IMG/VR virus record: IMGVR_UViG_3300050120_000138
Span: 1 to 34,323 of that record
Reading direction: 5' to 3' (one strand)
Source: a virus
DNA length: 34,323 bases
The notes under the pieces were generated by a model. It saw nothing but the letters and a program-made list of their open reading frames with translations. It did not search any database and was not told the origin of the DNA. Made by a program: the position numbers and the translations under genes. Shown here in pieces: positions 360 through 32,478 of this stretch; the stretch's first letter is position 1; each line of letters opens with the position of its first letter.

Positions 360-1061
360 TTAGGTCTTCGGTTGCCGGAGTTGTCGTAACAATTCACGAT
401 TGTTATCCAATGTCGAGGGGGCCTCTATCGGCATTAAATGCTCCATACCGAGGGCCTCCCGTAGTGCCAACGTGGCCTTTTCCTCTCCCTTCCTATATAG
501 ATGGAGAGTTTTCCCCTCAACCCGCATTCCAATCCCCTCAGCCAGGAGAGTTAGATCCAACCTTTCTGGCGAATTTCGAAGGGCTTTGAAATAAGCATAC
601 ATTCGACACTTTATATTTTCTGCTACCTTCTGTTCTACAAATTCTAATTCCATCTCAGGGTTCCCTTCTCTAATCTTCCTGTCCGCCCTGACCAGCAGAG
701 CTTCAAACTCAGGCCCAAAGGATTTTAAATCATTACGCCTTGGCATTCTTCTAGCTCCGTTCCAGACAATCAAGCGCTCTCGCCGGTCATCCGAGTTATC
801 CATATGATCCCCTACCTCTAGATGAGAGGGGCGTACACATCCCGGATTATCGCATCTATGGCGGACGAGCAATCCGTCAGGAATATCCCCGCAAAAGAGT
901 ATGTAGGAGATTCTGTGTGCAGCCTGTGGCCGGCCTCCAATACTTATTTTACCGTAGCCTCCAACATTCTTCCCTTTCAGCCATTCCCAACAGCTATCCT
1001 CATCGAATGTTTTCAATACCCCTGCCATAAAGCGACGAGCATCCTTATCTGTAATCAGCAT
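360..1061 (-). CDS. HNH homing-type endonuclease
   Basis: A 233-aa protein of the HNH_3 type often found as free-standing homing endonucleases in phages. The N-terminal half carries CWEWLKGKNVGGYGKISIGG, then AHRISYILF and the core HRCDNPGCVRPSHLEVG (about residues 68-85), with the metal-binding Cys pair and HNH histidines intact. The C-terminal 120 residues are charged, have no motif I recognise, and may be for DNA recognition. Its stop lies just upstream of the promoter at 320-348, so the neighbouring gene is not disrupted. The start is the first ATG (1061), with only a weak GGGA upstream. By eye the gene looks more AT-rich than the structural genes, as expected for a mobile gene. A second, shorter member lies at 32797-33228. 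Confidence 0.88.
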   Translation of the reverse strand: MLITDKDARRFMAGVLKTFDEDSCWEWLKGKNVGGYGKISIGGRPQAAHRISYILFCGDIPDGLLVRHRCDNPGCVRPSHLEVGDHMDNSDDRRERLIVWNGARRMPRRNDLKSFGPEFEALLVRADRKIREGNPEMELEFVEQKVAENIKCRMYAYFKALRNSPERLDLTLLAEGIGMRVEGKTLHLYRKGEEKATLALREALGMEHLMPIEAPSTLDNNRELLRQLRQPKT

Positions 1062-5348: not shown

Positions 5349-5938
5349 TGGATGACGATGCATTCCATGCCATTGCTCAGGGCATTGCTGATGGGGTAGA
5401 GATAGCTATCATGCCCGCAGTGCCGGAGAAGCCAAAGATACTTGCCCCTTCACCTTCTTCAGGGCTTCGATATTCCCCGGAACTGATGGTCGATCTCATC
5501 ATCAATAACCCCGATTACAGCTCTAAGCAACTCGGAGAGATCTTCGGCAAGCCCCAGTCATGGGTAGCTCAAGTCCTCGCATCGGCTAATTTCCAGTCTG
5601 CCCTCGACCCTCGACGTGCCGAAGTCCTGAATCCAGAGTATGCAATGACTCTAGAGGAGAGGTTCCGAGGGCTGACTATCCGGTCCCTCAACATCCTCCA
5701 AGAGAAGATGGAGACCGGGAAGGCCCTCCCTGACATGACTGTGCTGAAGATAGCCGAACTAGGTATCAAGGCTCTGGGCATGGGGCAGAAGGCTGCAGAG
5801 AAAGCAGCTCCAGAGGAAGCTCCGAAGAACTCCAGCGAGATGGTGGCTGACCGTATCATGGCAGCTATGGCTAAGCGGAAGGAAGCACAGCAAGGTGATG
5901 CTGTGGATGTCGTAGCTGTGGAAGTACCGAATGGCTAA
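5348..5938 (+). CDS. terS: Terminase small subunit (probable)
   Basis: A 196-aa protein with AAGGGG before its ATG. After a 40-residue N-terminal stretch it carries the HTH domain shared with the upstream gene (about residues 41-75) and a helical middle. Its C-terminal tail (PEEAPKNSSEMVADRIMAAM and on) is not present in the first paralogue and might contact TerL. Size, HTH and direct overlap with the large-subunit gene fit TerS, which binds the packaging site and presents DNA to TerL. Which of the two paralogues is the working TerS, or whether they form a mixed ring, cannot be told from sequence. Confidence 0.78.
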   Translation: MDDDAFHAIAQGIADGVEIAIMPAVPEKPKILAPSPSSGLRYSPELMVDLIINNPDYSSKQLGEIFGKPQSWVAQVLASANFQSALDPRRAEVLNPEYAMTLEERFRGLTIRSLNILQEKMETGKALPDMTVLKIAELGIKALGMGQKAAEKAAPEEAPKNSSEMVADRIMAAMAKRKEAQQGDAVDVVAVEVPNG

Positions 5939-7427
5939 TGCCCTGCAAACTTCGCTGAAGAAAACAGTTCTCAATGCCGAATTGATTGAGGGCTTTGCCG
6001 TCACCTATCTCTATTCCGGCTTTGACGAAGCCAAGCCCACTCCGCAGTTCCATAGGGAAGGTTGGGAGTTGTATAGTGGCCCCTCCTTGCAAGCCTGCGT
6101 GATCGCCCCGCGGGGTCATGCTAAATCCTCAGCCCTGACCCACGTATTCATTCTCGCCACGGTACTATTCCGGGTTGAGTCCTACGTAATCCTAATCTCC
6201 ACTAATGAAGAACTCGCCATTGAGCATTTGGGCGACATCTCACGGGAACTTACAGAAAATGAAGACCTCATTGCCGACTTCGGAATCAAGTCATTCGTTA
6301 CCAACAGCAAGACTGAAATTATCGTCGAGTTTAATGATGGCCATCAGTTTCGTATACTTGCTCGGGGGTCCGGACAGAAGCTCCGAGGTCGTAAATGGCG
6401 TGGCATGCGGCCGGGCCTTATTGTGTGCGACGATCTTGAAGATGATGAACAGGTGGAGAATAAAGAACGAAGAGAAAAGTTTAGGAAGTGGTTTAACCGT
6501 GCAGCAATGCCTGCTCTTAGACGTGGAGGTAAGATCCGCGTGCACGGAACAATCCTTCATGAAGATTCTCTTTTGGCTCGATTCCATAAGCAAACAAGAG
6601 AGAAAAAGTCCTGGGTAGTCCTCTTCTACAAGGCTCACAAAGCCTATGACGACTTCACCGAGATCCTCTGGCCAGAGCAGTTCACCTGCACTGACCTCCA
6701 GGCCATTCGTCAGCGCTACATCGATGACAACGACTCCTCTGGATACTCTCAAGAATACCTCAACGACCCTTACGACAACACTGATGGCTACCTCAAGAAA
6801 GAATACTTCCAGCAAATGGAGGATGATGATTTCGACGCTGATGTGCAGATCTGCGCTGGAGTTGATTTCGCTATCAGCAAAGCTGCCAAGGCCAATCGTA
6901 GTTCTTTTACTTTTGCTGGTCGTACTATTAACAACACTCTGAATTTCTTTCAGCAGGATAAAGGTCGCTGGGGGACTGATGAGATTATTGAAAAGATGAT
7001 TGAGTACGAGAAGCAGATCCATCCTGATGTATGGTTCGTTGAAGACGGCGTGATCTGGAAGGCAATCGAACCGATTCTCTTAGCTGACATGCGCGCAGCC
7101 AATGTCTTTCTCAACATCGTCCCGCTTTCTTCTGTAAAGGACAAAGCCACCCGTGGCCGATCCTGGCAGAAGCGTATGAAATCTCTAACGTGCAAATTCG
7201 ATAAGCAAGCCGAATGGTACGCCGACTACGAGCACGAATGCCTGCGGTTTACTGGCTACTCCGACTCTATCCTTGATGACCAATTCGACAGCTCTGCTAT
7301 CTTGTCTCGTGGATTCGACACCCTGCCGATGATGACTGAAGAAGACTTCATGTCGGAGGAAGAGATCGAATCCCTGCGCACTGACGCTCCGAATCATCTC
7401 GGCCGCAACGCAACTACAGGATATTGA
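5931..7427 (+). CDS. terL: Terminase large subunit (ATPase-nuclease packaging motor)
   Basis: A 498-aa protein. The ATPase half shows a variant Walker A, APRGHAKSS (59-67), and Walker B LIVCDDLE (163-170). The ILISTNEELA strand (88-97) and a GTILHEDSL segment (206-214) lie where terminase coupling motifs are expected. The nuclease half starts with CAGVDFAISK (Asp312), followed by WFVEDGVIWK (Glu371/Asp372) and ILDDQFDSSAIL near the C-terminus, giving the expected acidic residues of the RNase H-like nuclease. It packages DNA into the prohead and makes the packaging cuts. The start overlaps the end of terS by 8 bp. The length is usual for the family. Confidence 0.95.
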   Translation: MANALQTSLKKTVLNAELIEGFAVTYLYSGFDEAKPTPQFHREGWELYSGPSLQACVIAPRGHAKSSALTHVFILATVLFRVESYVILISTNEELAIEHLGDISRELTENEDLIADFGIKSFVTNSKTEIIVEFNDGHQFRILARGSGQKLRGRKWRGMRPGLIVCDDLEDDEQVENKERREKFRKWFNRAAMPALRRGGKIRVHGTILHEDSLLARFHKQTREKKSWVVLFYKAHKAYDDFTEILWPEQFTCTDLQAIRQRYIDDNDSSGYSQEYLNDPYDNTDGYLKKEYFQQMEDDDFDADVQICAGVDFAISKAAKANRSSFTFAGRTINNTLNFFQQDKGRWGTDEIIEKMIEYEKQIHPDVWFVEDGVIWKAIEPILLADMRAANVFLNIVPLSSVKDKATRGRSWQKRMKSLTCKFDKQAEWYADYEHECLRFTGYSDSILDDQFDSSAILSRGFDTLPMMTEEDFMSEEEIESLRTDAPNHLGRNATTGY

Positions 7428-7432
7428 AAATT

Positions 7433-9724
7433 ATGGCAGCCTACATCTCACAGCAGGATTCGGTCAGTGCGCCACCAGAGCCCGAAATTAAAAAGAAATT
7501 CGACCTGGATAAGATCCTGAATAGCCCGAACCTGGCTGAAGATCTCGATCCGGACCTGCGCAATGCCATTGGCAAGTGGGTTGTTGGTGGCTATGTGAAA
7601 GACATGTCCAGCCGCACGCAATGGGCTGAACGACATGCGGCAGCTATGAAGCTGGCTCTGCAGGTGAAGGAAGCAAAGACCTTTCCGTGGACCGGGGCGA
7701 GCAATGTGAAGTTTCCGCTGATTACGGTAGGAGCCCTCCAGTTCCTGGCTCGGATTTCTATCCTGACTAAAGGCAACCATCTGGCCAGCTTCCGAATTCA
7801 AGGAGCCGACCCAGAAGGAAAGAAAATCGCCAAGGCCAAACGGGTCAGCACGCACATCAACATGCAGCTAGTCGATGATGACCCAGGCTGGGCGGATATG
7901 GATGAGAGTTGCAAATTTGCCGCAAGCTTGCTCGGGTCATCCTTTAAGAAGACCAGCTATGATGCTGTCTCCGGGATCAACTGCAGTGAGTTCGTCCCTG
8001 CGCAGCATTTTATTGTTGATTACAACTGCAAGAATCTGGCTACGGCGTCTCGCTATACTCATGTAATCAGCATGGATGAGAACAAGATCACGGAACGAGT
8101 AAAGCGGAAGATCTTCATTAAAGAAGAGCAATCCGCCAACTCCAGCCTGGATCAGGTACTGACCAACCTGCTGGAGCGCGCTGCTGTTGAAGTGGCTGGC
8201 CTCTCCCCGAATTCTGAAAGCGAAGATAAACGAATCCTGGAGCAGTACTGCTGGCTGGATCTGGATGGAGATGGCTATAAAGAGCCCTATGTGGCGTCGG
8301 TACGGGAAGGCACTGGGCATCTGTATCGAATTGTAGCTCGGTTCTATGATGATGGCAGTGTCCATCGCCGCTTTGATGCGAGACAGCGGCAATTCGAGAA
8401 TCTGGCCAACCTCACTACAGATCCAAAACAGAAGAGCTTGTTTGAGCAGCGGGCTATGGCTACTCGTAATGCCAAGGACAACTCAATCGTCCGTATCGAC
8501 CCGGTGAATTTCTTCACTAAGTACACATTCGTACCGTCGCCGGATGGTGGATTCTACGGGCTGGGGCTTGGCTCCCTTCTCGGCCCTGTCAACGAGGCCG
8601 TCTCTACTCTCATCAACCAGCTAATCGATGCTGGTACGATGCAGACTACCGCAGGTGGCTGGATGGCGCGCGGTGCTCGGATGAAAGCCGGGAAAACCAG
8701 CTTCGACCCGTTTGAATGGAAGCATGTGGACTCGACTGGGGATGATCTGCGGAAGTCGATCATGCCTCTGCCGGTGAATGCCCCGAGTGACGTCCTTTTT
8801 CAGTTGTTGGGCGTGCTCATACAATATGGGGAGAAGATCAGCTCCGCCACCGATATCATGACTGGTATCTCTCCGGGTCAGAACACTCCAGCAACTACCT
8901 CTCAGGTGACCGTCGAGCAGGGCATGATGCTCTTCTCTGGCATCTACAACCGGATGTATCGCTCATTCCGGCATGAACTGACCATTCACTATCAGCTCAA
9001 TCGGACATTCTTTCAGCATTCACCTCGTTATTGGGAACTCACGCAAGGCCCTGATGCGATCCTGCAGGAGGATGACTACCAGCAAAGCAGCTTCCGGGTA
9101 TTTCCCTCAGCCGATCCATCTGTCTTGAGCATGTCGCAGAGGAAAGAAAAGGCCAGCCAACTCGTACAGGCATCTCTTACTCCAATTGGAGCGCAGTGGG
9201 ACAAAGCTGTTGTGTCTCGCAAGTGGCTTGAAGCTAACGAATGGGACGTTGAAGAGATCTTCCCTGATCCCGCAGGTCCCCGTGCTATCAAACCGCCGGT
9301 CGATCCGAAGTCTGCTATTGCCCAGGCCAAGCTCCAGCAAGAACAGCAGGAACATCATGACGACATGATGCTGAAGGTTGCTGAATTGAAGGGCAAGTTG
9401 CAACTCAACAATGCTGAAATTGAGAAGCTGAAAGCAGAAGCGGAGAAGCTGAGTGCGCAAGCGGATTCGGAGCCAGTGAAGACTCAGATTGCTGCTATAG
9501 ACGCACAAATTGGAGCGCGCAAAGCCCACAACGACACCATTCTGCAGGCCGCTGACATGATGGCAAAGGCCCACAAGACCCACAACGATATCGAGCAGGG
9601 CCATCACAAGATGCTGATGGATGTGCAGGATCGGATACTTGAGAAGGAGTCGTCTGCGAGGGAAAATCTGGCTGCAGGTCAGGGCGGTGCAGGGCAAACT
9701 ACCCCTTCCCCAACTAATTCCTAA
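7433..9724 (+). CDS. Portal protein (large, podovirus type)
   Basis: A protein of about 763 aa. The in-frame TTG at 7424 is only 2 nt from AGGA, so the ATG at 7433 is preferred. Size, position after TerL and content fit the large portals of P22-like and related podoviruses. The body contains [14 protein letters not shown] and a long stem/wing-like stretch, then [20 protein letters not shown] and [20 protein letters not shown]. The segment [20 protein letters not shown] is a typical portal element. From about residue 620 the chain becomes a Gln/Lys/Ala-rich coiled coil ([20 protein letters not shown] and on), probably the barrel that projects into the capsid. It forms the dodecameric DNA gate. 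It ends in a TAATG junction with the next gene. Confidence 0.93.
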
Positions 9725-9735
9725 TGGAGAATCAA

Positions 9736-9960
9736 ATGGATAATCAGCACAAGCAGATCAAGGGCTATCGGGACCTTTCGCAGCATGAGATCGATCTTAT
9801 GAATCATGTTAAGAACGAGGCTGCTGCAGTGGGAATTCTCTTTGATGGCCTTGAAGGAGTTGAAGGGATTGACCAGCGTTGGCTTGCCATCGCCAAAACA
9901 GATCTTCAAAAGGGTTTTATGGCTCTGGTTCGTAGCATCGCACAACCCACTTCTTTCTAA
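9736..9960 (+). CDS. acb2: Probable Acb2-family cyclic-nucleotide sponge (anti-CBASS)
   Basis: The ATG at 9736 is chosen over 9724 because GGAGA sits 5 nt before it; this gives 74 aa. The sequence [18 protein letters not shown] and the tail [20 protein letters not shown] then IAQPTSF match my memory of the Acb2/T4 Vs.4 family (Acb2-Tad1 hairpin domain). In phage PaMx33, as I recall, Acb2 is a small hexamer that traps the cyclic di- and trinucleotides used by CBASS. With this start the Tyr and Lys fall at positions 11 and 26, which I recall as ligand-contacting residues in the described protein. It lies between portal and co-chaperonin, so it would be a late-block gene unless transcribed separately. 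The assignment rests on motif memory, not a search. Confidence 0.75.
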
Positions 9961-9971
9961 GGACCTAACCC

Positions 9972-10247
9972 GTGCAACTCCCCCAAGACTACGGCCCAGA
10001 GGATTTCCTGAGCTGGTTTCACAATCCAATCACCGAGAGTTTTCTGCATAGCCTGCTAGAGGACAAGCAGGAGATAATGGAAGCGTGGGCGCGACGTGCC
10101 TACACGGGTGAAAATGAGGGGCAGACTCTGCAGCTGAATGCTGTGGGGCTTGCTCAGATCAAGACTATTAACGAGTTGCTGCAGAATCTGGAAGATAGTG
10201 CTGAGTCGGCACGAGTCCAGATCGCAGAAAAGAATAGGAGTAAGTGA
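9972..10247 (+). CDS. Hypothetical protein, 91 aa, between Acb2-like and co-chaperonin
   Basis: A GTG start at 9972 follows AAGGACCTAACCC. The product begins MQLPQDYGPEDFLSWFHNPI and is helical throughout. Its second half resembles a short coiled coil (QIKTINELLQNLEDSAESAR) with a basic end. The stop overlaps the start of the co-chaperonin gene. I recognise no family. The position between portal and scaffold is compatible with a head-assembly accessory, but nothing in the sequence demands that. Confidence 0.75.
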   Translation: MQLPQDYGPEDFLSWFHNPITESFLHSLLEDKQEIMEAWARRAYTGENEGQTLQLNAVGLAQIKTINELLQNLEDSAESARVQIAEKNRSK

Positions 10248-10666
10248 TGGATGAGAATGATTCGCAAACTTGGGAATTGAAAATTATGCCGAAAACAGGC
10301 TACCTTCAACCAGGCTGGCGTTCTGAGAACAAAGGCCCCAATCCAGCCAACAACTCCGGCTTCCGCGCCACTGGCCACCGCATCCTGCTCATCACAGAGG
10401 AAGTGGAAGAAGTAACTTCCGGTGGGATCGTGCTGGTAGCGAAGACAGTTGTGGCTGAAGCGAACCGCGCACAGGTTTGCACTGTCCTGGAGATTGGCCC
10501 CGATGCGTGGGCGGATAAATCCACAGACTACTGCGAGCTTGGGGATAGGGTGCTCATTGGGCAGTATGTGGGCAAGATGCATGAATCCCCGGTGGATGGA
10601 AAGACCTATCGGTTTGTTAGTGATCTGGACATCATCTCTCCACTGCCCCCGAAGGATGTGAAATGA
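10247..10666 (+). CDS. GroES-like co-chaperonin
   Basis: The ATG at 10247 is 6 nt after AGGAG; a GTG at 10244 is too close. The 139-aa product has a 40-residue N-terminal extension and then a Cpn10 fold: ATGHRILLITEEVEEVTSGG then IVLVAKTVV (mobile loop about 53-69), AQVCTVLEIGP, GDRVLIGQYVGK and a C-terminal strand KTYRFVSDLDIIS. The SGGIVL tripeptide region is the same GroEL-contacting sequence found in E. coli GroES. It likely caps host GroEL during capsid protein folding, the role known for T4 gp31. Its place just before scaffold and capsid genes supports this. The family call is strong; the exact client is inferred. Confidence 0.87.
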   Translation: MDENDSQTWELKIMPKTGYLQPGWRSENKGPNPANNSGFRATGHRILLITEEVEEVTSGGIVLVAKTVVAEANRAQVCTVLEIGPDAWADKSTDYCELGDRVLIGQYVGKMHESPVDGKTYRFVSDLDIISPLPPKDVK

Positions 10667-11010
10667 CTGTGAACTGGAGAATTCTCGACAGTTTCTTGAA
10701 AGATAAGTCACAATCTTTTGGGCACTGCACAAATCGAGTAGTTGCTGATGATGGACAGGTTCATAGATTCACAACGATTTGTTCCGGGGGAGTGAAACCG
10801 GAGGGGTTTGGGACACCTCTGTATGCTTCCTTAGAATTAGCTGTTTCTGATTATGTGGAATCGCTGAAATCTTTCATTGCTCCTGACATCGATCGCCCTG
10901 ACGCTGTCATTTACTGGAGGCAGCAACCTACGGTCGAAGGGGATGGTGAAATGTTTTTTGTTTACTCTCGCCTTCTGGTAGGCCCTCCAGGTTTGAAAGA
11001 TCCTGTATGA
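10663..11010 (+). CDS. Hypothetical protein, 115 aa
   Basis: The start overlaps the co-chaperonin stop as ATGA. The protein begins MTVNWRILDSFLKDKSQSFG. A beta-rich middle (VVADDGQVHRFTTICSGG) is followed by YASLELAVSDYVESLKSF and a C-terminal strand pair (VIYWRQQPTVEGDGEMFFVY). It reads as a compact alpha/beta protein without export signal. No family is recognised. It belongs to the portal-to-scaffold gene string by tight coupling on both sides. Confidence 0.75.
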   Translation: MTVNWRILDSFLKDKSQSFGHCTNRVVADDGQVHRFTTICSGGVKPEGFGTPLYASLELAVSDYVESLKSFIAPDIDRPDAVIYWRQQPTVEGDGEMFFVYSRLLVGPPGLKDPV

Positions 11011-11189
11011 GCACTCAAGCCAACTTCGATGTGCGAATTTTCGATGTAGAGCCGGGCATCGAAGAGGAAGTCTGGGAGCGGGTGAGTGCTGCTCTGGTAA
11101 AAGCCGTCCGGGAGGCACTGGAGGCTGAAGATATCTCCTCTGTGTCGATTGTGCTCCGAGGGCCGGAGGTTGTCAGTTTGTTTAACTAG
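11007..11189 (+). CDS. Hypothetical acidic small protein, 60 aa
   Basis: It is coupled to the gene before by an ATGA overlap. The product, beginning MSTQANFDVRIFDVEPGIEE, is acidic. It has a strand-helix-strand look: FDVRIFDVE, an Ala/Glu-rich helix VWERVSAALVKAVREALEAE, then VSIVLRGPEVVSLF. No family is recognised. It is the last gene before palindrome copy 4, which may mark a transcription boundary. Confidence 0.7.
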   Translation: MSTQANFDVRIFDVEPGIEEEVWERVSAALVKAVREALEAEDISSVSIVLRGPEVVSLFN

Positions 11190-11195
11190 TTTTCA

Positions 11196-11223
11196 ACCGT
11201 TATTACTATTTAGTAATCCCGGT
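11196..11223. repeat. Dispersed palindrome copy 4
   Basis: The core is ACCGTTATTA, spacer CTATTTAG, then TAATCCCGGT, with TTTTCA on the left flank. It lies in the 68-bp gap before the scaffold gene. It is identical over the 28-bp core to copy 5 at 14592-14619. Confidence 0.93.
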
Positions 11224-11257
11224 AAATAACCGTAGTTCCATAACTGGAGTTATAGCA

Positions 11258-12190
11258 ATGCCAATTTTGATGCAGCGATTACTGAACCGAGTGTTCCTCC
11301 AAGAGCAATCAGGTGAAGGTGGTGAAGGTGGCGGGGGCCATGATGAAAACATCCAACGGGAGCAGGAACTCGAAGCCTCTCGTCGGGGCTGGATTCCCAA
11401 GCACAAGTACACTGGCGAGGAAGGCAAGTGGAAGGATGCAGCCACCTTCCTAGCGGATGGAGCCAAGTACAATCGCAACCTGCAGACAGAGCTGGCAACA
11501 GTCAAAAAGCAGCTTGCTGAGTTCGAAGGTACGGCTAAGGAATTCGCAGCCTTCCAGCAGCGGCAGATCGAGGCTAGGGACTCCCAAATCGGTGAGTTGG
11601 TACGGGACCTCAAGCGCCAGCAGCGCGAAGCCATTCGTGACGGCAACGACGACATGGCGGATTCGATCGAGGACCGCCTGGACATCCTGAATGATGAGCG
11701 CGCGAACGTCAAACAGCAGATTGAAAAGCAAAAGCAAACTCCTGAGGGCAAGTCTCCCTCCGCTGTCATTGATGAAGACGGCAACACCAACGATCCTGTC
11801 GTGCGTGCGTGGATCAACAATGGCAACCAGTGGTTCAACGAGAGCAAGCCGATGCGGGATTACTGCTTCGCCTTGGCTAACGAAGCCATCGCTGCAGGTG
11901 AAACCAAACGCGGACTACCCTTCCTGAACCTGATGCGAGAGAAGATGGAAGAAGCCTTCCCGATGAAGTTCAAGAAGTCCGGTGATCCGACTGCTAGGGG
12001 CAGCATGACTGAAGCTGGTGGCGGTGGTGGCGGGGATGGACGTAGCCATTCGGTCAATGACCTCCCTGAAGCGGATCGTGAGTTGATGCGCACTGGCATC
12101 CGGCAAGGTTGGACCTCCGAAGCGACCTTCCTGAAAAACTACTTCTCGGACGAGCCCCACATCCACCGCACTGCTCCGAAGAAGAAGTAA
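11258..12190 (+). CDS. Scaffolding-type protein
   Basis: A 310-aa protein behind GGAGTTATAGCA. It has a Gly/Glu/His-rich N-terminus and RRGWIPKHKYTGEEGKWKDA, an opening I associate with phage scaffold-like proteins. A long charged coiled coil (about 75-165; QTELATVKKQLAEFEGTAKE, LVRDLKRQQREAIRDGNDDM) follows. The C-terminal region has a Gly run and then a basic end (APKKK). Position just before head genes, coiled-coil content and high charge support a capsid scaffold that is lost on maturation. No protease gene is visible nearby, so scaffold release rather than cleavage would be expected. It is followed by a 153-bp gap without a gene. Confidence 0.78.
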   Translation: MPILMQRLLNRVFLQEQSGEGGEGGGGHDENIQREQELEASRRGWIPKHKYTGEEGKWKDAATFLADGAKYNRNLQTELATVKKQLAEFEGTAKEFAAFQQRQIEARDSQIGELVRDLKRQQREAIRDGNDDMADSIEDRLDILNDERANVKQQIEKQKQTPEGKSPSAVIDEDGNTNDPVVRAWINNGNQWFNESKPMRDYCFALANEAIAAGETKRGLPFLNLMREKMEEAFPMKFKKSGDPTARGSMTEAGGGGGGDGRSHSVNDLPEADRELMRTGIRQGWTSEATFLKNYFSDEPHIHRTAPKKK

Positions 12191-13658: not shown

Positions 13659-14573
13659 ATGCCAGGTATTGTCAATACAGGCTCCTACCCCAAGGGACTA
13701 TGGGAAGGGGTGAAGAGCTGGTGGGATTCGGCAGCTCCGGGTGCGCCCGAGTTCGCGCCGATGATGTTTAAGAAGTACGATTCGGAGAAGAACTACGAAG
13801 AGTACGTTCAGTCGGTTGGTCTGGGGCTGGCAGTGTTCAAGCCGGAAGCTCAGCCGATCAGCTACGACACGATGCAACAGGGTTTCATCACCCGTGGCAC
13901 CAACGTGGCGTATGGCCTGGGGATCATTGTCACCCACGAAGAGCTGAAGGATAACCTCTACGTGAAGCTGACCCAGGGCCGTGTCGAACGCCTCCGTCGC
14001 GCCTTCCGCGAAACGAAGAACATCAACGCAACGAACGTTTTCAACCGGGCCTTCAACGCCACGTATGCTGGTGGTGATGGAGTTGCTCTGTTGAACACCG
14101 CTCATCCGAACTTTTCTTCGGGCACGTGGCAGAACAAGATGGCGATTGATGCTGCCTTGTCTCAGGCTGCGGTCGAAGACATGCTGATCCTGATGATGCA
14201 AGCCAAGGATGACCGTGGCTATATCGAACCGTTGACGGGGGACAAGCTGATCGTCCATCCGAACAACATCATGAATGCCGACCGCATCTTGAAGACTGGG
14301 AAGGCCGTTGGGAACAACAACAACGACATCAACCCGATTGAGACGGAAGGGTACTTGATGGGTGGTCGCGTTAGTAACCCCTACCTCACGGCGGCCGATC
14401 CCTGGTTCATTACCACCGGTATTCAAGATGGTATGATCTGGCAGGAACGTGAACCATTGGAGATTTGGGAAGACAATGACGCCGACACGAGGAACTACAA
14501 AGTTGGCGCTTACGAACGCTACACATTCTTGTGGGCTAACCCCCGCGGCTTGTACGGTTCGAACGCAGCGTAA
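13659..14573 (+). CDS. Major capsid protein, HK97 fold, Mu gpT-like
   Basis: A 304-aa protein starting behind AGAGGAGAATTACC. It contains GLGIIVTHEELKDNLYVKLT, an N-arm/spine-helix-like region ERLRRAFRETKNINATNVFN, and GVALLNTAHPNFSSGTWQNK. The last is the SxHPN element I know from Mu gpT-type capsid proteins. The segment LTGDKLIVHPNNIMNADRIL and a final YKVGAYERYTFLWANPRGLY also fit the P-domain/A-domain order of the HK97 fold. It has no long delta domain, in keeping with a separate scaffold gene. It would make the icosahedral shell. Confidence 0.88.
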   Translation: MPGIVNTGSYPKGLWEGVKSWWDSAAPGAPEFAPMMFKKYDSEKNYEEYVQSVGLGLAVFKPEAQPISYDTMQQGFITRGTNVAYGLGIIVTHEELKDNLYVKLTQGRVERLRRAFRETKNINATNVFNRAFNATYAGGDGVALLNTAHPNFSSGTWQNKMAIDAALSQAAVEDMLILMMQAKDDRGYIEPLTGDKLIVHPNNIMNADRILKTGKAVGNNNNDINPIETEGYLMGGRVSNPYLTAADPWFITTGIQDGMIWQEREPLEIWEDNDADTRNYKVGAYERYTFLWANPRGLYGSNAA

Positions 14574-31432: not shown

Positions 31433-31888
31433 GTGAAAAAAATCTCTCTTTTAGTAGTAGCTGCAGTTGCGGGTCTTGCTGCTCTCGCTGGTTGTGCCAA
31501 TGCCCCGGCACTGCCGACCCTGCAGCAGCAATTCGTGCAGATGTGTCCCGTAGTCAATGCGGATCTGGCTGTGCTGGCTGCATCCCCATCGTTGACAGTT
31601 GCCCAGCAAGACACGCTGAAGACCCAGATCATCCCGGCTAACCAGCTGATCTGCTCGACAGGCGCGGCATTGAATGTGACCAGCTTGAAGGCCTTCCACG
31701 ACAGTCTGCTGCCCGTGGCAATTGGAATTGTGCAAGCTACTCCGGCAATTCCGAATCAGCCTCTGGTACTGCTTGCTCTGCAACTCTTCGGCCCAGTTGT
31801 GCAAGGGCTGATCGATCAGGCTATTACGACTGTCGCACCGGCTGCTCCCGCAGTTCCGGCATCTGCTCCGGTTGCCACGAGCATCTAA
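31433..31888 (+). CDS. Lipoprotein (lipobox LAGC), 151 aa
   Basis: A GTG start follows AAGGAGTATGTC. The first 20 residues MKKISLLVVAAVAGLAALAG end in a lipobox with Cys21. The mature part is Ala/Leu/Val-rich, with IIPANQLICSTGAALNVTSL and VLLALQLFGPVVQGLIDQAI, and ends in a Pro/Ala tail. It should be an outer-membrane or periplasmic lipoprotein, as o-spanins are, but it is longer than usual Rz1 proteins and lacks their Pro-rich short form. Spanin substitute or superinfection-exclusion lipoprotein are both possible. Confidence 0.72.
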   Translation: MKKISLLVVAAVAGLAALAGCANAPALPTLQQQFVQMCPVVNADLAVLAASPSLTVAQQDTLKTQIIPANQLICSTGAALNVTSLKAFHDSLLPVAIGIVQATPAIPNQPLVLLALQLFGPVVQGLIDQAITTVAPAAPAVPASAPVATSI

Positions 31889-32478
31889 TGACCCCGAAGG
31901 ATTTTGCCCTGCTCGCACAGGAAGCCTACACCGCAACTCCAGATATTGGGGTTGTGAATAGCGCTTCTCGGGCCATCGTGCGACATACGGATGCCGGGTT
32001 GGTTGTGGCATTCCCCGGCACTAACAACGCAGCCTGCTTCTCGGCTGATTTCGACATTGAACCTTTCGAAGTGGCTGGGGTCGGGGAAGTCTATAAGGGG
32101 TTTTGGAAGGCGTGGGATGCGATATCTCTGCCTGTGCTGGCTGCGGTGGATGGTTGCCCGGTGATTCTGGTAGGGCATAGCCTGGGGGCTGCAATGGCCC
32201 TCTGTGCGGCAGCTTATATGGCCGTAGGTGGCAATCCCCCGGAGGCGGTGTATGCATTCGAGCCTCCTAGAGTAGGGGTTGACATGGGGATTCGCACGGC
32301 CCTGGCTAGTGTGCCGTTGTATTTGTTTAGGAATGGGAATGACATGGTGACGGATCTGCCGCCAGAGGGGCATCATCCTGCGATGTTGACTTCGATTGGA
32401 AGTGCCTCGTTCCCGTTTCCTAACTTAGCCGATCATGCCATAGCAAGGGTTGTTGCGGCTCTCGGGGCGTCAGGTTGA
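31888..32478 (+). CDS. Class 3 lipase/esterase
   Basis: A 196-aa alpha/beta hydrolase coupled to the lipoprotein gene by TAATG. It has LVVAFPGTNN (oxyanion strand), the nucleophile elbow VILVGHSLGAAMAL (Ser98), GNDMVTDLP (Asp152) and LADHAI (His183), the full Ser-Asp-His set of lipase_3. There is no signal peptide, so like the endolysin it would need the holin or cell lysis to reach the envelope. Last in the lysis cassette, it could cut membrane lipids and help open the outer membrane. That role is inferred. Confidence 0.82.
   Translation: MTPKDFALLAQEAYTATPDIGVVNSASRAIVRHTDAGLVVAFPGTNNAACFSADFDIEPFEVAGVGEVYKGFWKAWDAISLPVLAAVDGCPVILVGHSLGAAMALCAAAYMAVGGNPPEAVYAFEPPRVGVDMGIRTALASVPLYLFRNGNDMVTDLPPEGHHPAMLTSIGSASFPFPNLADHAIARVVAALGASG

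Follow-up and report, generated by a model that had tools for sequence, protein, structure and literature searches.

The closest described counterparts of the locus analysed here are the Acb2 sponges of phages PaP2 and T4. The protein in PDB entry 8H2J is Acb2 of Pseudomonas phage PaP2 (PMC11722364). It is encoded by gene p26, which is found at the matched place in the PaP2 genome, and the p26 structures comprise 8h2j, 8h2x, 8h39, 8ixz and others. The p26 protein has 93 aa and a hairpin fold, and its gene neighbours DNA polymerase I and faces the capsid genes. Phage T4 encodes Vs.4/Acb2 (7uq2), a helix pair with the ligand Tyr (Y8) in an IKGY motif. In this protein the substitution Y8A abolishes cyclic-dinucleotide binding (PMC12657218), T68M lowers the affinity (PMC12657230) and F82 is a base-stacking ligand residue (PMC12657218); the T4 residue numbers are inferred, the 7uq2 chain being shifted by one. 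Tad1 shares the name of the Pfam hairpin domain and, according to the literature, the function of a hexameric sponge, and contains an N-terminal antiparallel beta-sheet (PMC12043709).

The window, that is, the whole stretch of 34,323 nucleotides of the IMG/VR virus record IMGVR_UViG_3300050120_000138, carries a short gene of this family among its head and packaging genes (Table 1). The product is very probably an Acb2-type cyclic-oligonucleotide sponge, encoded by an optional accessory (moron-like) gene of the late head operon.

Table 1. Features of the head region of the window, with the evidence for each assignment.
Feature	Coordinates	Strand	Evidence or description
Terminase large subunit, start of head and packaging genes	5931..7427	+	phrog_38, E 9e-67
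Portal, upstream border of the optional slot	7424..9724	+	phrog_1216 portal, E 5.9e-17; SU10_portal (Pfam) just below cut-off
Shine-Dalgarno GGAG for the acb2 start at 9736	9725..9728	+	Sequence; near relatives with matching upstream sequence
acb2-family gene	9736..9960	+	74 aa, short-loop form; predicted helices at residues 16-39 and 47-69
91-aa gene, downstream border of the slot	9972..10247	+	Found in acb2-bearing and acb2-less relatives alike
GroES-like (Cpn10) gene	10244-10666	+	35.5 bits, cut-off 21.1
Major capsid protein, same direction as acb2	13659..14573	+	Phage_capsid_4, 36.6 bits, cut-off 27

The portal stop codon occupies positions 9722-9724 and is overlapped by an in-frame ATG at 9724, which would give a product of 78 aa. 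This alternative start is rejected, as the relatives give it no support. The start at 9736 is taken as the right one because the GGAG is well spaced (7 nt from the ATG) and most relatives on viral contigs have MDNQHK as their first residues at the corresponding position, the codons upstream being unrelated. The choice of start made in the earlier note, and with it the numbering of Tyr11 and Lys26, is thus retained. The resulting length of 74 aa is the commonest among the collected relatives, which were selected by similarity to the 74-aa query. Around acb2 no sigma-70 promoter or terminator could be convincingly placed, and the stretch from 7200 to 11300 yielded no terminator-like site.

The only Pfam family that matches the product, permissive E-values included, is Acb2_Tad1_hairpin (PF24729). 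The match reaches 66.6 bits (E 2.2e-18), far above the curated cut-off of 27 bits, and aligns residues 10-70 of the query with the entire profile (1-58 of 58). Comparison with the solved p26 (8h2j and others) gives E 2.4e-19 for the single sequence and, with a profile built from 60 relatives, 2.6e-32; the corresponding values for T4 Vs.4 are 5.6e-4 and 2.3e-8. The homology spans the full length of both of these biochemically proven proteins. Matches (E up to 1) occur in 719 phage records, which together with the PF24729 and solved Acb2 E-values excludes a chance match. Judged from its sequence, the 74-aa product is a genuine Acb2, belonging to a family that is already known and populous. The Acb2/Vs.4-type identity that the earlier note had read from the letters is therefore borne out, including by the profile search against the hairpin family that it had proposed as a check.

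The fold agrees with this assignment. The AlphaFold2 monomer is a two-helix hairpin (pLDDT 89), in keeping with the two long antiparallel helices found in each Acb2 protomer. In Foldseek, Acb2 chains are the sole matches with E < 0.001 (8h2j, E 6.7e-6), followed by Vs.4, and all others have E > 1. VIA-align also ranks Acb2 and Vs.4 first, with a Z of 7.8 that is weak for helix pairs, so that weight is given only to the margin and to the sequence identity. The best matches of both programs are 8h2j, 8h2x and 7uq2, and the helical hairpin anticipated in the earlier note is what the predicted monomer displays. CsoR, Esx and Rop in the VIA-align list are unrelated helical pairs that share a common arrangement. 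The model lacks the short helix that the solved Acb2 has at its N-terminus. The N-terminal tail has a pLDDT of about 52, yet it is highly conserved, and it may become ordered only with the ligand or with neighbouring protomers.

The likeness to p26 includes the 22-letter N-terminal block, the C-terminal blocks (RWLAI-KTD-Q-G-MA--R-IAQP-SF), the hairpin fold and Tyr11 at the same position. The two differ in the inter-helix loop, which is about 19 aa longer in p26, and in the setting of the gene. T4 Vs.4 is a remote relative (about 30% identity in the structural alignment) that shares the IKGY motif with the ligand Tyr, the helix pair, the IAKT-L motif and the R and QP near the end, whereas its F82 is replaced by Ala here. 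Homologues of equal length (74 aa) with 68-69% identity are encoded by giant phages (Cronobacter GAP32 and the Erwinia pEa_SNUABM phages), where they are annotated only as hypothetical proteins; the genomes of those phages have about 355-360 kb, whereas the phage of the window is small. An identity with Tad1 is rejected: the 74-aa protein lacks the room for an N-terminal beta-sheet, and the AlphaFold2 model contains no strands.

Among the 60 relatives, Y11, L14, N23, R66 and P71 are invariant. Q4, H5, I8, G10, R12, E18, K26, D46, R48, W49, T55, L57, Q58, G60, M62 and A69 are conserved in at least 90%, and the inter-helix loop differs among the relatives in both length and sequence. The ligand pocket described in PMC12043709 lies where this conservation is found. 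As judged by alignment, the conserved positions belong to the ligand-pocket regions in the N- and C-terminal blocks. In the profile alignment Y11 corresponds to T4 Y8, and this, along with its invariance, substantiates the earlier proposal that Tyr11 is a ligand-contact position. T55 aligns with T4 T68, and A69 with T4 F82. The p26 protein also has Ala at the latter position and binds cGAMP nonetheless. Lys26 may contact the ligand phosphate; a text search of the available papers found none naming K26.

Comparison with the nearest distinct relative (L004) reveals 18 nucleotide differences, of which about 15.5 are synonymous and about 2.5 nonsynonymous, a pattern that points to strong purifying selection on the acb2 ORF. 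Across 55 sequences, the use of synonymous codons for conserved residues matches expectation along the gene. The synonymous excess and the unconstrained synonymous sites across the family together indicate that selection acts on the protein only, and a second layer of information in the acb2 DNA is rejected. The first 90 bases of acb2 match the DNA of PaP2 and VP882 at 80%, which, given the expected codon use, reflects the conserved protein.

The head operon runs rightward in the order terminase large subunit, portal, acb2, 91-aa gene, GroES-like gene and major capsid protein. The terminase, portal and capsid matches confirm the location inside the head operon that had been suggested before. 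A portal-based search recovered 15 viral loci, and acb2 is the slot content common to the window and five others. In two loci with nearly the same portal (L086, 98% identical; L092, 97%) the 91-aa gene directly follows the portal, and the slot also lacks acb2 in L087, L088, L090, L091 and L094. The gene order is shared by the related MW202796 (terminase, connector, small gene, chaperonin, capsid), which has a GroES-like gene at the same place and carries no acb2. Thus, acb2 is an optional cassette in the slot downstream of the portal and not part of the head; what is unusual here is its presence as a removable gene within a head-assembly operon. In L093 the slot is filled by an unrelated 92-aa ORF (1414-1692) with no Pfam match, which may encode a further small protein with an accessory or counter-defence role. 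In L086 (6580-7353) and L092 (1715-2488), both without acb2, the GroES-like gene seems N-terminally extended to 257 aa. By eye, the extension resembles the product of a separate gene at window positions 10663-11010, a possible gene fusion.

Relatives of acb2 elsewhere adjoin helicase, DNA polymerase, ribonucleotide reductase, terminase, portal or tail genes. In PaP2 the gene is on the replication side, and in VP882 it closes the tail module. When 6.1 kb of the head operon (5900-12000) were searched, only acb2 matched the DNA of cultured phages, which fits a horizontal spread of the gene. One viral contig (L037) has a portal (phrog_1216), one gene and then acb2. Its portal has no detectable BLASTP relation to that of the window, and an inherited portal-acb2 linkage is rejected: the neighbourhood recurs, and sequence comparison does not support a shared descent. 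In 34 viral contigs, limited to those with a terminase detected by three profiles (a fourth found none), acb2 is closer to the large terminase than a random position (KS p about 0.001, uncorrected for the relatedness of these contigs, which are fragments). In 16 of them it lies within the nearest 17% of positions. A bias of acb2 towards the terminase in this clade is taken as a lead only. The gap between the two genes is sometimes only 9-54 bp among these IMG/VR contigs. The SMODS cyclase profile, a narrow one used to look for CBASS, scores above its cut-off in 2 of the few (11) genomes with a prophage acb2.

By analogy with the characterised Acb2 proteins, six copies of the product would form a hexamer with three sites for dinucleotides and two for trinucleotides. 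The hexamer would sequester cyclic di- and trinucleotides but not degrade them, and through this sequestering the CBASS effectors would stay inactive. The gene order suggests that translation from the late head transcript would let the sponge accumulate during the production of capsid proteins. A very improbable reading of the same gene order, in which acb2 sits between the portal and the GroES-like gene, is that of a head or connector accessory protein with a structural or assembly role that merely shares the hairpin fold. Against such a role, the gene is missing from relatives in which the portal is 98% identical and the downstream gene the same, and also from the head operon of MW202796. 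The optional slot and the diverse neighbours of the relatives, which include helicase, DNA polymerase, ribonucleotide reductase and terminase genes, likewise argue against a function in the virion, and the conserved residues fall in the ligand-pocket regions.

A sponge with a shifted ligand preference, for instance for a signal other than the CBASS dinucleotides, would counter another cyclic-nucleotide system. The short loop and the Ala at the position of T4 F82 could be read in this way, and Acb2 homologues are reported to vary in their binding spectrum (PMC12043709). Such a shift is nevertheless unlikely, as Y11 and K26, and the N- and C-terminal blocks in their entirety, are close to those of p26. 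That the gene is a decayed or non-functional passenger is scarcely credible: its frame is intact, it has a ribosome site of its own and the synonymous excess against L004 is strong. Its absence from close relatives would fit decay, as would the loss or mutation of the family in several phages, such as T4-like phages resistant to Panoptes (PMC12657218, PMC12657230). In Panoptes hosts the same kind of sponge triggers the defence (PMC12657218, PMC12657230), and the loss of acb2 in close relatives is plausibly explained by this triggering.

If the product is an anti-CBASS sponge, as the evidence favours, its place in the operon may bear on its timing. Phages that lack acb2 but escape CBASS were noted to have a capsid mutation (PMC10419184), and one may speculate that the expression of acb2 together with the capsid is advantageous. 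In a more far-reaching and rather doubtful proposal, small counter-defence genes are exchanged at a slot downstream of the portal, with acb2 under late control and CBASS responding near the time of capsid accumulation. Trigger and antidote would then appear together, and the bias towards the terminase region would represent selection on timing. An uncultured phage lineage appears to carry a putative anti-CBASS sponge gene of the Acb2 family. The clean presence and absence of the gene at one slot provides ready pairs for weighing the cost and benefit of a sponge, namely CBASS evasion versus Panoptes triggering, and the 74-aa short-loop form could serve as a minimal Acb2 for structural work.

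Two further genes of the window lie outside the head region. Downstream of the genes for tail fibre and lysozyme, positions 31888-32478 (+) encode a Class 3 lipase domain (48.6 bits, cut-off 22), an unusual phage cargo. Near the left end, positions 360-1061 (-) encode an HNH endonuclease (HNH_3, 40.6 bits).
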